From assembly GCF_007995155.1 (NCBI RefSeq), contig NZ_CP042593.1, positions 3,080,001-3,144,000 of the forward strand: 64,000 nt of DNA, given 5' to 3'. Of this stretch, positions 3,559 to 28,730 are shown piece by piece (positions within the stretch are counted from its first letter, which is position 1; the number at the start of each line of letters is the position of its first letter). The notes under the pieces are model-generated. The model was not told where the DNA came from, did no database searches, and saw only the letters and a list, made by a program, of their open reading frames with translations. The DNA is from Cytobacillus dafuensis. Lineage in GTDB: Bacteria > Bacillota > Bacilli > Bacillales > Cytobacillaceae. Position numbers and translations under genes: made by a program.

Positions 3559-4035
3559 ATGCATTTGCATAAGTTTGAAAAAATTTGGCTTATCTTCGGT
3601 ATAGGATCGCTGCTTGTATTTTTAACCGTACTAGGTGTCAGCGCTTTCTATCTCGGAAATCAGCCTCCAAGCTGTTTGGCAACAATAGATCCTGAAAAGG
3701 TAGATACAACTGCTCCTTTTAATGAACCTGGGCTTAAAAAAGTTGAAGGTAAAGAATGGGACTATGAATTAGTATTCGTTGCTTCTGCATTTAATTATAC
3801 ACCTGGTGAAGTTCAAATTCCAAAAGGTGCAAAAGTAAAAGTTATTGCTACAACAAAGGATGTTATCCATGGATTTGAAGTAGCAGGCACAAACGTTAAC
3901 ATGATGCTAGAGCCTGGCTACATAAGTGAACTTGTCTATACTTTTAACAAAACTGGTGAATTTTTAATCCTTTGTAATGAATATTGTGGGGTTGGTCACC
4001 ATATGATGACTTCGAAAATTGAGGTGGTTGAATAA
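3559..4035 (+). CDS. cbaB: ba3-type cytochrome c oxidase subunit II (CuA subunit)
   Basis: A 158-residue protein with one N-terminal membrane anchor (about residues 9-33) and an extracytoplasmic cupredoxin domain. CuA ligands are visible: a His in DVIHGFEVAG and the cluster CNEYCGVGHHMM (CxxxC, His, Met). It accepts electrons from cytochrome c and passes them to subunit I. The start is the ATG preceded by GAGAGGGGA; an in-frame TTG at 3538 directly follows the previous stop codon but has no good ribosome site. Its stop overlaps the subunit I start by one base. The short one-helix form is typical of B-type (ba3) oxidases. Confidence 0.9.
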   Translation: MHLHKFEKIWLIFGIGSLLVFLTVLGVSAFYLGNQPPSCLATIDPEKVDTTAPFNEPGLKKVEGKEWDYELVFVASAFNYTPGEVQIPKGAKVKVIATTKDVIHGFEVAGTNVNMMLEPGYISELVYTFNKTGEFLILCNEYCGVGHHMMTSKIEVVE

Positions 4036-24760: not shown

Positions 24761-25228
24761 ATGAGTGATCAAGGAAGAAAGGAAAAAAATGAACCGTTTG
24801 GCGAAATAATGAAATCAATGAATCAATTTTTCCACGAGAAGCCTGTTAAGGGTTTTTTACAAACGATGGATGATTTTTTTAAAAACCCCTCCCCATTTCA
24901 TTCATCATTTCATATTGATGTACATGAAACCGCAGGTGAGCATATTATTACTGCAGAACTTCCTGGGGTAAAGCGTGAACAAATTCAACTAGATGTGCTG
25001 GATAATTATATAACTATTACTATTAATTCAAATGAATTATTTACTGAAGAGGATGAAAATCAGAAATTCGTTAAACGGCGGCAATCTATGCATAGATCAA
25101 GTAGAACCATCCCTCTTCCGCAACCCATTAATGAAAGAAAAGTAAAAGCGACTTATCAGAATGGTCTTTTACAAATACGTATTCCGAAACAGGTAGGAAA
25201 AAAAATCATAATCGATGAAATCAAATAA
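24761..25228 (+). CDS. Hsp20/alpha-crystallin small heat-shock protein
   Basis: A 155-residue ATP-independent holdase. The alpha-crystallin domain runs from about residue 50 to 145, with HIDVHETAGEHIITAELPGV, RSSRTIPLP and the family's A-x-x-x-N-G-L-L motif (ATYQNGLLQIRIPK). The last residues (KKIIIDEIK) contain an IxI-like element. Start placed at the ATG of MSDQGRKEK behind GGAGAT. It stands alone with its own terminator inside the accessory block. B. subtilis has related YocM, CotM and CotP; which is closest cannot be told here. Confidence 0.9.
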   Translation: MSDQGRKEKNEPFGEIMKSMNQFFHEKPVKGFLQTMDDFFKNPSPFHSSFHIDVHETAGEHIITAELPGVKREQIQLDVLDNYITITINSNELFTEEDENQKFVKRRQSMHRSSRTIPLPQPINERKVKATYQNGLLQIRIPKQVGKKIIIDEIK

Positions 25229-25263
25229 AAAACAAGCAGCGATAAACTGCTTGTTTCTTTATT
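25229..25263 (+). terminator. terminator of hsp20
   Basis: AAACAAGCAG and CTGCTTGTTT form a perfect 10-base stem around a 7-base loop, followed by CTTTATT. It begins directly at the stop codon. Confidence 0.85.
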
Positions 25264-25338: not shown

Positions 25339-27747
25339 TTACTCTAATGATGTATCAAGCCAACGATTAAAATAACCTGAAGGAACACTGAAATAATCTT
25401 TTGTAAACCTTATGAACTCATTCGTATCTACTTCTTTGTATTGAAAATGATGATAATAGTCTGAAAGAAATTGCATGCTAACCTCTTTGACATCTTCTCC
25501 TTTCATTCTATATTTGTCCTTCATCATCTTCAATAATTCAACGGCAGGCTGACCATATATAAATCCAGTGTTCTTCATTTTATCTAACGGAATATTAGAA
25601 TATTGTCTCCCTAGTGGAGGTTCTGACGATGCGATTCTTTCTATACGGCGATACGGAATACTAAAAGCATGTCTTTCGGTTTGATTTTTACCAGCATAAA
25701 AATACATCGAGGTTGCAAATTCAGTCATCCCTTCATCAACCCAAGCTTGATTATACTGATCATTTGCAACAACACCATAAAAATATTGATGGGCTATTTC
25801 ATGTACAATTGCGTTTCGATAGAAATAAGTATCCTCAATATATGGGTTAATCGTGACAACTCCAGAGTATTCCATAAACAGACCATTATCTAGAATAATA
25901 TCTAATTGTTTATGAGGGTACTTTCCTATGTTATCCTGATAAAACGACAATGCGTCTTTAGCAAGGGTCATTGTTTCTTTCAAATCTTTATGATGATCAT
26001 TTTTAGAGAATAAACGAATTTTTACTCCGTCATTTGCTATCTCCTCATGAACATCCATGTCCCTTATGATCGCAACAAAAAAATCTCTAACTTTATTTAT
26101 CTTTACTTTGCCTTCATTATTTTTAAGCTGTGGATCTTTCTCAGCAGATGAAATGAATGAATACCCCTTGGGTAGCTTGTATGCAATCTCAAAGTCGGAA
26201 AAGTCTGTATGATAGGTTTCAATTCCGTCGGAATATTCTTCCTTATTCCACTTTCCCTTTTGATAAGTTGCAAGCATTGGATACCATTGAGCCAAATAGT
26301 AATTATCCTTTTCCTTCGAAAAGCGAACACCTTCCTCTGGCACTGTAAATTCATAGTCGATTTTTACCTTAAATCTTTTTTTATCTTTCATTTCTGTAGG
26401 AAGATTAATTCTCAGCGTATCCCTTTCTAAACTATATTTAGCTTTTTCACCATTGATCTTGATTTCACCCATATTAATTTCAGAATAGCCCTTAACTGAT
26501 TGAAAATGATGACCTTTTTTAAATACATTTGGAATAAAGTAAAAAATGAGTTCATCCCATTTTTGATCTGATAAATTTTTCACAAGTATATTCGCTTCAG
26601 TTTTAAAAACTCCATTTTTATCCATTTCAAATTGAATATCATATTTAGCTTTGCTGTAATTTTTAACGCCAACATCATTATCTTTTGTTACTACAACATA
26701 TACACTTGCACTAATAAAAATAAGGAGCAATCCCATGAGAGCAAGCTTTTCTCCACTTGGCTTCCAAAAATTCCGCTTATTATTGTACTGTTTTCTAATT
26801 GGTTTTAATATTTGAATTTGTCCTGTCCTTATCCATGGGGTTCTTGAATAGTTTGATTGAAAGCGATTTTTCAAACCATTTGCCAGTAAACTAAATGAAA
26901 TAGTTGTAAATAATAAAATAATTAATGGGACAACCAGTATATGAGTATTCCCGTAAATGTTTCCCCTTGCTTGTCCGACTAATCCTGATAGCTCCTTCGT
27001 AGTGGATAAAAATATAAGAGGATCAAATCTAACAATCGTTCCACCGACAAAAATATTCATTAATGCAAGCTGCCCCATAATCGTTATGACATACACAATT
27101 TCTAATATGAACATAACTAAAATCGTTTCCTTTAATTGAGGAAAAATATGCTTCCAAATTAACCTGTTCCTGCTAGCTCCAAGAATATTTGCTGCCTCAA
27201 TATATACAGATTTATACAATTCATTCGTTTTCAATCTTACGGAGGAAACAATACTTGGAATACTAATTACAGAAGCAAGAATAATAAAATAGAAGACGAG
27301 AGTACTTGTTTCTAAAATACTATTAAAACTAATCGGTTTCATAAAAAAATATAATATTAGAAACAACGGAACATAACTCCAAGCATTCTCGAAGGCAATA
27401 ACCCAGCTAGGCGTTTTTTTCCATGTTCCAATATATAATCCAAAAACCGTGCCAAATAGCATTTTTATACACGTTACTGCTAATGCAATCAACACAGTAT
27501 AACGGATTCCGTACAATACCATCGTCAGTAAATCATAGCCCCATTTATCTGTTCCTAATGGATAGCTTTCATTTTCGAACGGTTCCAATGGTGGTGCTAG
27601 TACTTTTCCATTCGTATATTGAGTCTCTAGCAATTCTGTCAATGAATATGGAGCCAGAATCGGACCAAAAATGCTTAGAAAGATTAAAACAGATACAAAA
27701 AAGATTCCTAAATATAAAGAGTAATTAAGTTTATAAAGTTTATTCAT
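25339..27747 (-). CDS. OppC-like ABC permease fused to an M1-type metallopeptidase
   Basis: An 802-residue two-part protein. Residues 1-300 are a peptide-type ABC permease: an N-terminal helix (about 12-32), a PLGTDKWGYD element (about 63-72), several helices, and a conserved EAA loop, EAANILGASRNRLIWKHIFP (184-203), that contacts an ATPase. After a basic linker and another helix (about 337-354), residues 370-802 form an M1 (gluzincin) domain. That domain has the GxMEN-like FMEYSG (624-629), the zinc site HEIAH (649-653), the third ligand E672 (HEXXH-x18-E) and a likely catalytic Tyr in IYGQP (731). The peptidase should face outside. Start chosen at ATG 27747 (GAGGATTT), overlapping the upstream permease by eight bases. 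No ATPase or binding protein is adjacent. Confidence 0.88.
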   Translation of the reverse strand: MNKLYKLNYSLYLGIFFVSVLIFLSIFGPILAPYSLTELLETQYTNGKVLAPPLEPFENESYPLGTDKWGYDLLTMVLYGIRYTVLIALAVTCIKMLFGTVFGLYIGTWKKTPSWVIAFENAWSYVPLFLILYFFMKPISFNSILETSTLVFYFIILASVISIPSIVSSVRLKTNELYKSVYIEAANILGASRNRLIWKHIFPQLKETILVMFILEIVYVITIMGQLALMNIFVGGTIVRFDPLIFLSTTKELSGLVGQARGNIYGNTHILVVPLIILLFTTISFSLLANGLKNRFQSNYSRTPWIRTGQIQILKPIRKQYNNKRNFWKPSGEKLALMGLLLIFISASVYVVVTKDNDVGVKNYSKAKYDIQFEMDKNGVFKTEANILVKNLSDQKWDELIFYFIPNVFKKGHHFQSVKGYSEINMGEIKINGEKAKYSLERDTLRINLPTEMKDKKRFKVKIDYEFTVPEEGVRFSKEKDNYYLAQWYPMLATYQKGKWNKEEYSDGIETYHTDFSDFEIAYKLPKGYSFISSAEKDPQLKNNEGKVKINKVRDFFVAIIRDMDVHEEIANDGVKIRLFSKNDHHKDLKETMTLAKDALSFYQDNIGKYPHKQLDIILDNGLFMEYSGVVTINPYIEDTYFYRNAIVHEIAHQYFYGVVANDQYNQAWVDEGMTEFATSMYFYAGKNQTERHAFSIPYRRIERIASSEPPLGRQYSNIPLDKMKNTGFIYGQPAVELLKMMKDKYRMKGEDVKEVSMQFLSDYYHHFQYKEVDTNEFIRFTKDYFSVPSGYFNRWLDTSLE

Positions 27748-28603
27748 AAATAAATCCTCGTTTAAAAAGATAGAATACGAGTCTGACAGATGTATACACA
27801 ATGGCTGAAATTAGAAGCATCGAAAATAGCCCAATGGCTATTGGCTGTATCTCATTGCTCTGAAAAATAAATTTTGTTATTCCTGAAACATTCATTATGT
27901 ATTCAATAATAAAGAGATTTCCAATTGCTAATGATATGACCTTAACTAGTTCTGCTTTAATAAAGGGCTCAACATTTTTATAAACATGTTGAAAATTAAT
28001 ATAATTTAAGCTCATTCCTTTCGCAACTGCAGTTTTAATATAATCTTCTCCACTTGTTTGATAATACTTAACAGTGACAAGCTTAAATAAATACAGTGTT
28101 GGTGCTATACTGACGAGAATCGTCGGAAACCAAAGATTTAATGCTCCTGCATCTGGCCGTAATGACATTATTCTTATTCCTGTCATCTTATAGATTTTAA
28201 CAGCAAGTATCATAGACATGATGATGATAATAAAATCTGGAATTGCTGATAAAATATTCAATACGAAATTAAATACTTTTGTTAAATGAAAGCGACTAAT
28301 AAAAATTCCAAAAAACAGGCTGATACCAACAGCTGCATTTACACCTAAGAGCATAATCTTTAAACTAGTAAAGAAGTTATCACCAATGTCTTCTTCGATT
28401 GCACGCCGCTGGGTCCCTAATTGATAAGTACCTAGACTCCCTTTACTAATTTCAGAAATAAAATCACCAAAAATCTCAGGTAATTTTTCAAAATTCCAAT
28501 CTAAACTTTTCTCTACAGAATTAACTTCAATCATCATAGGTAATGCAGCAAGAGAAAGTATTAACAGGAAAATAATTACAATTTGTTGTATCGTTCGTAA
28601 CAC
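27740..28603 (-). CDS. OppB/DppB-like ABC transporter permease
   Basis: A 287-residue membrane protein with about six helices: an N-terminal one (about 7-24), a periplasmic-type insert (about 25-80) and the binding-protein-dependent permease core. The EAA loop is present but degenerate (YIKTAVAKGMSLNYINFQHVYKNV, described in part: conserved G and spacing, EAA replaced by KTA). The start is GTG, preceded by GAGGAGG at seven bases. First gene of a two-gene operon with the permease-peptidase fusion; presumably the two form a heterodimeric pore. Substrate unknown, peptides likely. Confidence 0.85.
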   Translation of the reverse strand: MLRTIQQIVIIFLLILSLAALPMMIEVNSVEKSLDWNFEKLPEIFGDFISEISKGSLGTYQLGTQRRAIEEDIGDNFFTSLKIMLLGVNAAVGISLFFGIFISRFHLTKVFNFVLNILSAIPDFIIIIMSMILAVKIYKMTGIRIMSLRPDAGALNLWFPTILVSIAPTLYLFKLVTVKYYQTSGEDYIKTAVAKGMSLNYINFQHVYKNVEPFIKAELVKVISLAIGNLFIIEYIMNVSGITKFIFQSNEIQPIAIGLFSMLLISAIVYTSVRLVFYLFKRGFIYE

Positions 28604-28730
28604 ATGTTTTTCCTCCTCTGCTATTATTTCTATATTTTTTCATTCTTTTTTATTAATTGTCAATAAAATTTAGTTAATTCCTATAATTCTATATATATTT
28701 TTTTCCTCTATCACTCTAAATAAAACTCAA

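Follow-up and report, generated by a model that had tools for sequence, protein, structure and literature searches.

Type I ABC importers are taken to require a binding protein. Among the closest described relatives of the locus presented here are the canonical Opp/Dpp systems (DppABCDF and OppBCDF in E. coli; OppABCD and DppABCD in M. tuberculosis), from which it differs in having no ATPase in the operon, no binding protein and no scoop, the motif of canonical OppB and DppB that docks the binding protein (PMC12136057). The sharing of ATPases has precedents: in Borrelia, two permease heterodimers are served by one OppDF (PMC5736914), and MsmX is a case of ATPase sharing in sugar uptake (PMC7658222).

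The OppB'/OppC'-M1 locus of Cytobacillus dafuensis

The window (the whole stretch of DNA that was analysed, 64,000 nt) corresponds to the interval 3080001-3144000 of contig NZ_CP042593.1 of Cytobacillus dafuensis (GCF_007995155.1). Two genes are of concern here, both present as mechanical open reading frames, 27740-28603(-) and 25339-27801(-). The first encodes an OppB-type permease of 287 aa with a GTG start, here called OppB' (27740..28603, (-)), and the second the OppC'-M1 fusion (25342..27747, (-), stop codon excluded), whose mechanical start is TTG and whose homologous start, an ATG at 27747, gives 802 aa. The stop of OppB' ends at 27740 and the ATG of OppC' begins at 27747, an 8-base overlap that recurs in all 48 related loci in which OppB can be read and that confirms what the initial annotation had said of the upstream gene, namely that it is a second permease overlapping the fusion by eight bases.

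A promoter scan found a promoter-like site (TTGACA-18-AAAAAT; 28634..28663, (-)) upstream of OppB', and a terminator-like hairpin lies 3′ of the fusion gene (25227..25259, (-)); such promoter-like sites number 25 in the scanned stretch vs 20.0 expected, and such hairpins 3 vs 1.6 expected. Both Neobacillus stretches that were scanned also have a promoter-like site ahead of OppB', and TTGACA is found at most 90 bp upstream of OppB' in 29 of 47 regions, the shuffled mean being 1.1 and the rows being related to each other. Given these sites, separate transcription of OppB' is possible. A CodY box upstream was considered and rejected, as the best windows show 3-6 mismatches to the consensus, and a PADLOC scan of the DNA gave 0 matches.

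OppB' matches the Pfam family BPD_transp_1 (E 1.1e-11), as does the fusion at positions 117-314 (820-aa numbering; E 8.8e-9). The OppC' permease part, residues 1-298 (26854..27747, (-)), is recognised by its Pfam and NCBIfam results, by a match to DppC (E 1.1e-12) and in the AF2 model. The NCBIfam equivalog cut-off of 350 bits is reached by neither protein, the best scores being 38.5 bits for OppB' and 77 bits, with Opp4C, for the fusion. The OppB/OppC membrane fold is kept in OppB'; as the VIA list for the fusion was filled by M1 chains, OppC' was judged by sequence alone. EAA coupling loops are conserved in both subunits, as in Opp/Dpp. In OppB', EAA loop comparison identifies the motif EDYIKTAVAKG (28016..28048, (-)), which is retained in 46 of the 48 orthologues (L019 has a variant and L023 gives no match); the canonical loop that had been annotated in the permease half of the fusion occupies residues 184-203 (27139..27198, (-)), with G190 and P203 present in 42/42 fused rows.

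The permease part is followed by a K/R-rich linker (residues 294-331; 9 K/R, 0 D/E), a seventh membrane helix, TM7 (residues 332-354; 26686..26754, (-)), which is helical in the AF2 model, and lastly by an M1 aminopeptidase part of two domains (residues 365-802; 25342..26655, (-)), predicted to lie outside. Pfam Peptidase_M1 matches at 662-798 (820-aa numbering) with 28.7 bits, the cut-off being 27.7, and the M1 fold was found. Every active-site residue proposed initially could be located: the zinc motif HEIAH, by alignment of rows (H649, E650 and H653; 25789..25803, (-)); the third zinc ligand E672, 18 residues past H653 in an HExxH-x18-E arrangement (25732..25734, (-)); E626 of the MEY motif (25870..25872, (-)), which we take to be the probable N-terminus-binding glutamate; and Y731 (25555..25557, (-)), presumably the catalytic tyrosine. 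All six are intact in 56 of the 67 rows of the protein set. Judging from its residues, the M1 active site of the window protein is complete and aminopeptidase activity is predicted; TM7 is predicted to hold M1 on the outer face, and the earlier idea of an outside-facing peptidase is supported as a prediction.

The union of an OppC-type permease with an M1 metallopeptidase in a single chain is confirmed by the 802-aa product and its BPD_transp_1 and Peptidase_M1 matches. The initial annotation had named two findings that would speak against it, a sequencing or assembly error joining two genes and homologues that are always split and have their own ATPase and binding protein, and neither was found. 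Homologues are not always so arranged, and an artefactual join is refuted, with next to no probability left to it: 59 of the family's 193 genomes contain 61 copies (at least 60% identity), 51 with the long frame and 10 short (hand count), and the fusion is also seen in named strains of several genera. A protein search returned 79 proteins, of which 65 are full-length fusions (query included), the other fusions being 43-92% identical to the query; carriers are named Cytobacillus, Neobacillus, Mesobacillus and 'Bacillus', among others. The M1-bearing pore is found in one group of soil bacilli.

Some copies deviate. Four of the 51 long-frame copies give no match to stand-alone M1 at E 1e-60 and, by frame length, are probably diverged forms. 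In G048, one of the short copies, a frame change splits the fusion and M1 still lies just downstream in another frame; in G013, also short, there is no M1 within the 8 kb examined. The long frame of G056 has an in-frame stop, and its locus, L071, looks identical in sequence to L036. The latter (L036:7947-10139) comes from a contig titled Pseudomonas sp. ISL-84 that is in full synteny with the Cytobacillus locus and is probably mislabelled or contaminated.

A subfamily of orphan pairs and the history of M1

The scoop region of OppB' is short, with a segment of 25 aa vs 38-42 aa in nine canonical OppB from the same genome. An LDxP-type motif is present in 9/9 of these canonical OppB, in 0/48 orthologues and in 0/15 other rows; strict P[GF]xP is present in 8/9, in no orthologue and in no other row, and a loose GxP pattern appears in 2/48 orthologues and 2/15 other rows. 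Segment length, motif counts and the structure model, with strands at residues 25-28 and 33-36, point to a short hairpin in place of the scoop motif at residues 20-37 (28493..28546, (-)). On this evidence, OppB' is without the docking scoop, as are the M1-less members of the subfamily.

A search of the same 193 genomes also brought up relatives of OppC' at 33-46% identity. Fourteen wider loci (L095-L108; L109 is L045 repeated) each have an OppB-like and an OppC-like gene, which overlap by 8 bases in 8/14 and by 4 bases in 2/14, the mechanical starts being ambiguous in four. In the stretches examined, OppDF-like or SBP_bac_5-like genes were found in 0/14 of these loci (Walker A plus signature; BLAST vs the nine own sets), and a single ATPase, at 32%, is present in L106. 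A wider member used as query against proteins gave 78 hits, among them Cytobacillus, Niallia, Virgibacillus, Lentibacillus, Ornithinibacillus, Brevibacillus, Paenibacillus and Heyndrickxia. In the aligned members, OppC has an extended loop with GGT at its start and GLxG within it (by eye, in the portion of the alignment covered). The window pair is a member of a wider OppB'/OppC' subfamily of Bacilli, mostly without OppDF or a binding protein nearby. It had been suggested that M1 might replace the binding protein; this is unsupported, because the M1-less pairs lack the docking segment as well, and the wider family also lacks a linked binding protein.

A scan of 10 proteins flanking the wider pairs revealed no common family except for two penicillin-binding transpeptidases; one protein had no match and one was a gamma-glutamyltranspeptidase, whose gene (L098:10769-12541) lies ~1.1 kb upstream of the OppB'C' pair on the same strand. 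At L105:8400-11184 (G191), the orphan pair consists of one OppB-like gene followed by two OppC-like genes. Additionally, a second, different Opp-type pair adjoins yprA at L007:11867-13683, with no ATPase in the stretch, in the C. firmus group and B. infantis; it is also found in L008, L010, L014, L016, L017, L032 and L039, and its OppB starts in L007, L010 and L032 are, by eye, without a PGDP-type scoop.

The named collection of 50 loci consists of 41 fused ones (including L036 with its in-frame stop), 8 without M1, and L050, where a remnant is left. Five of the unfused proteins (L042-L046) stop in or past the seventh helix, in a way that suggests removal of M1, and three (L047-L049) stop ahead of it; no convincing M1 remnant was detected in the unfused loci (best E 0.33). 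When the permease tree is rooted on the wider family, the presence or absence of M1 requires at least 5 changes within the clade (the starred branches alone force fewer), and the active site 2 changes. A single gain of M1 is probable, with several later losses or inactivations of its catalytic site, the permease being retained. The active site is intact in 34/42 fused rows and altered in 7/42, the eighth remaining row being the truncated L036; six of the altered rows are without zinc-site or catalytic-glutamate residues and L027 lacks the tyrosine only. Six pairs whose sites are intact have an M1 dN/dS (NG86) of 0.10-0.20, and the values are 0.275 for L037/L038 and 0.22 for L035/L040, both with ruined sites; L027/L041 and L024/L027 give 0.11 and 0.07, at dS above 1.7. 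Since M1 is absent or altered in several lineages that kept OppB'C', trimming would be dispensable, and the permease does not depend on M1.

Across 99% of its length, the M1 part shares 40-43% identity with stand-alone M1 metallopeptidases of Peribacillus, Rummeliibacillus, Lysinibacillus, Priestia and Virgibacillus. Inspected by eye, 9/15 stand-alone relatives start with a membrane helix or a lipobox-like sequence; 5/15 showed neither and one was ambiguous. In P0063 and P0064 (649 aa), two tandem OppC' copies form one chain, the second in the place of M1.

Motor, binding protein and direction of transport

The window has no ATPase gene, as initially reported, in so far as none of the 136 PF00005 matches listed (150 of 213 candidates scored) falls in its interval, and it has no binding protein, the SBP_bac_5 matches of the genome all lying outside. 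If the pair is a transporter, it needs ATPases from elsewhere, as had been proposed, and an ATPase is expected because the EAA loops are conserved in both orphan subunits. The orphan OppD/OppF suggested as their source were not found: OppBC pairs, OppDF pairs and linked binding proteins each number nine in the genome, and 18/18 oligo_HPY matches belong to the nine pairs beside complete OppBC operons (an OppD/F without oligo_HPY would be invisible in this search). Close-spaced ATPase pairs at 3894, 4026 and 1666 kb were discarded, as their neighbours are, by eye, permease genes of the branched-chain amino acid (Liv) type. In one complete opp operon of the same genome, a single protein of 665 aa (L061:4555-6552) combines two OppD-OppF-like ABC ATPase domains with oligo_HPY.

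A hint of the partner comes from Neobacillus, where the pair of 5/50 loci (L029 and L046-L049) lies behind SBP-oppB-oppC-oppD-oppF on the same strand, with a gap from oppF to the pair of 124-264 bp in four loci and 1429 bp in L029. These opp ATPases are 86-88% identical to the set at 1741461-1743466 of the C. dafuensis genome. The five loci form one clade and hence represent one event that was kept, and only in these 5/50 loci is a binding protein linked, there belonging to the adjacent opp operon; in the other 45/50 there is no OppDF in the stretch examined, several stretches ending at contig ends. An OppF of that type is present in 180/193 genomes, which makes its co-occurrence with the pair uninformative, and is missing at E 1e-150 from G162 and G048 (the genome with the frame-broken fusion), both of which have the pair. 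EAA-loop likeness was discarded as a guide to the partner: for the OppC' loop, L059b reaches 32% while two other sets give 39% and 37%, for the OppB' loop it is 34% vs 37% for two others, and the set at 1738-1743 kb is not singled out.

That the motor is unlinked in most loci, and the pair alone in many genomes, could also mean that OppB'C' transports nothing and is a sensor or scaffold which regulates OppDF or presents M1 at Opp sites. This is quite improbable, as the OppB fold is retained along with the EAA loop of each subunit, which fits energised transport.

The reading that we prefer, with a probability of roughly 0.4, is a peptide translocator that needs no binding protein and is powered in trans by a shared OppDF, with a surface M1 trimming at its outer mouth. 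OppB' and the OppC' part would form an Opp-type heterodimeric membrane pore that lacks a dedicated ATPase gene, and the pore would bind OppD and OppF made elsewhere, most likely by the operon at 1738-1743 kb of the same genome (G000; ATPases at 1741461-1743466). With no scoop in OppB', it may work without a canonical binding protein. We infer that transport would be inward and that the substrate would be a peptide, whose N-terminal residues M1, placed on the outer face by the seventh helix, would strip at the outer mouth; cleavage might in this way be spatially coupled to transport, and such trimming is plausible. In favour of this reading are the widespread long frame, the low dN/dS and mostly intact active site of M1, the retained EAA loops, the Neobacillus arrangement, the Borrelia precedent, the missing scoop, the K/R-rich linker with TM7 and the anchored starts of stand-alone M1. 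Against it count the many loci with no OppDF nearby, the two genomes that have the pair but not that OppF, the promoter-like sites ahead of OppB' even in Neobacillus, the dispensability of M1, export by the Opp-like SapBCDF and the stand-alone M1 starts in which no anchor was seen.

Two SBP_bac_5 genes of the genome stand away from permeases, at 2934762 and at 3898553 (~3 kb from another opp set). They leave room for an ordinary importer that borrows OppDF together with one such permease-free binding protein, M1 being a passenger with a new membrane anchor. Such a view would suit the dispensability of M1 and the fact that several stand-alone relatives are anchored already, but the scoop is missing in 48/48 orthologues and in the wider members, and the M1 active site is kept in most rows, so we consider it improbable.

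The main rival to inward translocation is export. In this case, the scoop-less OppB'C' would send out a signal or cell-wall peptide that the outer M1 matures or degrades, the mirror image of the C39-peptidase exporters. Most loci have no linked binding protein and the docking segment is missing, as would suit an exporter; putrescine export is reported for the Opp-like SapBCDF and for the type I importer PstSCAB (PMC12772348), and SunT is a precedent for a peptidase-exporter fusion (PMC11466899). Nevertheless, no gene for a precursor peptide was noticed, the SapBCDF substrate is not a peptide and several lineages have lost M1, and export seems unlikely to us. Beyond the window pair, we advance only tentatively, as somewhat less probable than the trans-driven translocator itself, the general proposal that Bacilli possess type I ABC translocators without their own motor, binding protein or scoop that borrow OppDF, and that in one clade the substrate is met at the mouth of the channel by a surface aminopeptidase built into the pore and not by a binding protein.

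Comparison with known systems

Each part of this locus is known and the combination is new, that is, an Opp-type subfamily without a linked motor or scoop, in which one clade has its own surface aminopeptidase. No description of the fusion or of scoop-less orphan pairs was found in the literature at title/abstract level, mostly outside subscription papers. A conserved Opp-type pair without docking segment or its own motor would offer a test of whether peptide pores may operate without a binding protein, or outward, and the fusion is a natural coupling of an enzyme to a translocation pore, for which the natural M1-less and M1-dead versions provide controls.

In comparison with canonical Opp/Dpp, the present pair also has a longer OppC loop (GGT start, GLxG; by eye) and an added TM7 and M1. 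The Opp system of Borrelia burgdorferi resembles our model in its two permease heterodimers on one OppDF; by contrast, it uses binding proteins, and a permease peptidase is not mentioned in the accessible part of PMC5736914. That no binding protein is linked to the pair would fit an Opp-like exporter of the SapBCDF type, whose export would need none.

With regard to the enzyme, the two-domain M1 of Deinococcus radiodurans (6a8z and relatives) is a separate protein of ~430 residues outside any permease. The stand-alone M1 of Peribacillus and the other genera are likewise unfused, and the Peribacillus starts inspected have neither a membrane helix nor a lipobox-like sequence. ABC-2-type permease/M1 fusions do join M1 to an ABC permease, but one of a class unrelated to OppC'. 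A parallel in architecture is provided by P0070-P0076, in which an OppC-type permease carries an extra C-terminal domain, and those with M28 are also peptidases, as here. However, these fusions (P0073-P0076 and P0070-P0072, with an M28 peptidase or PQQ-type repeats) involve another enzyme family and a distant permease (25-29% identity).
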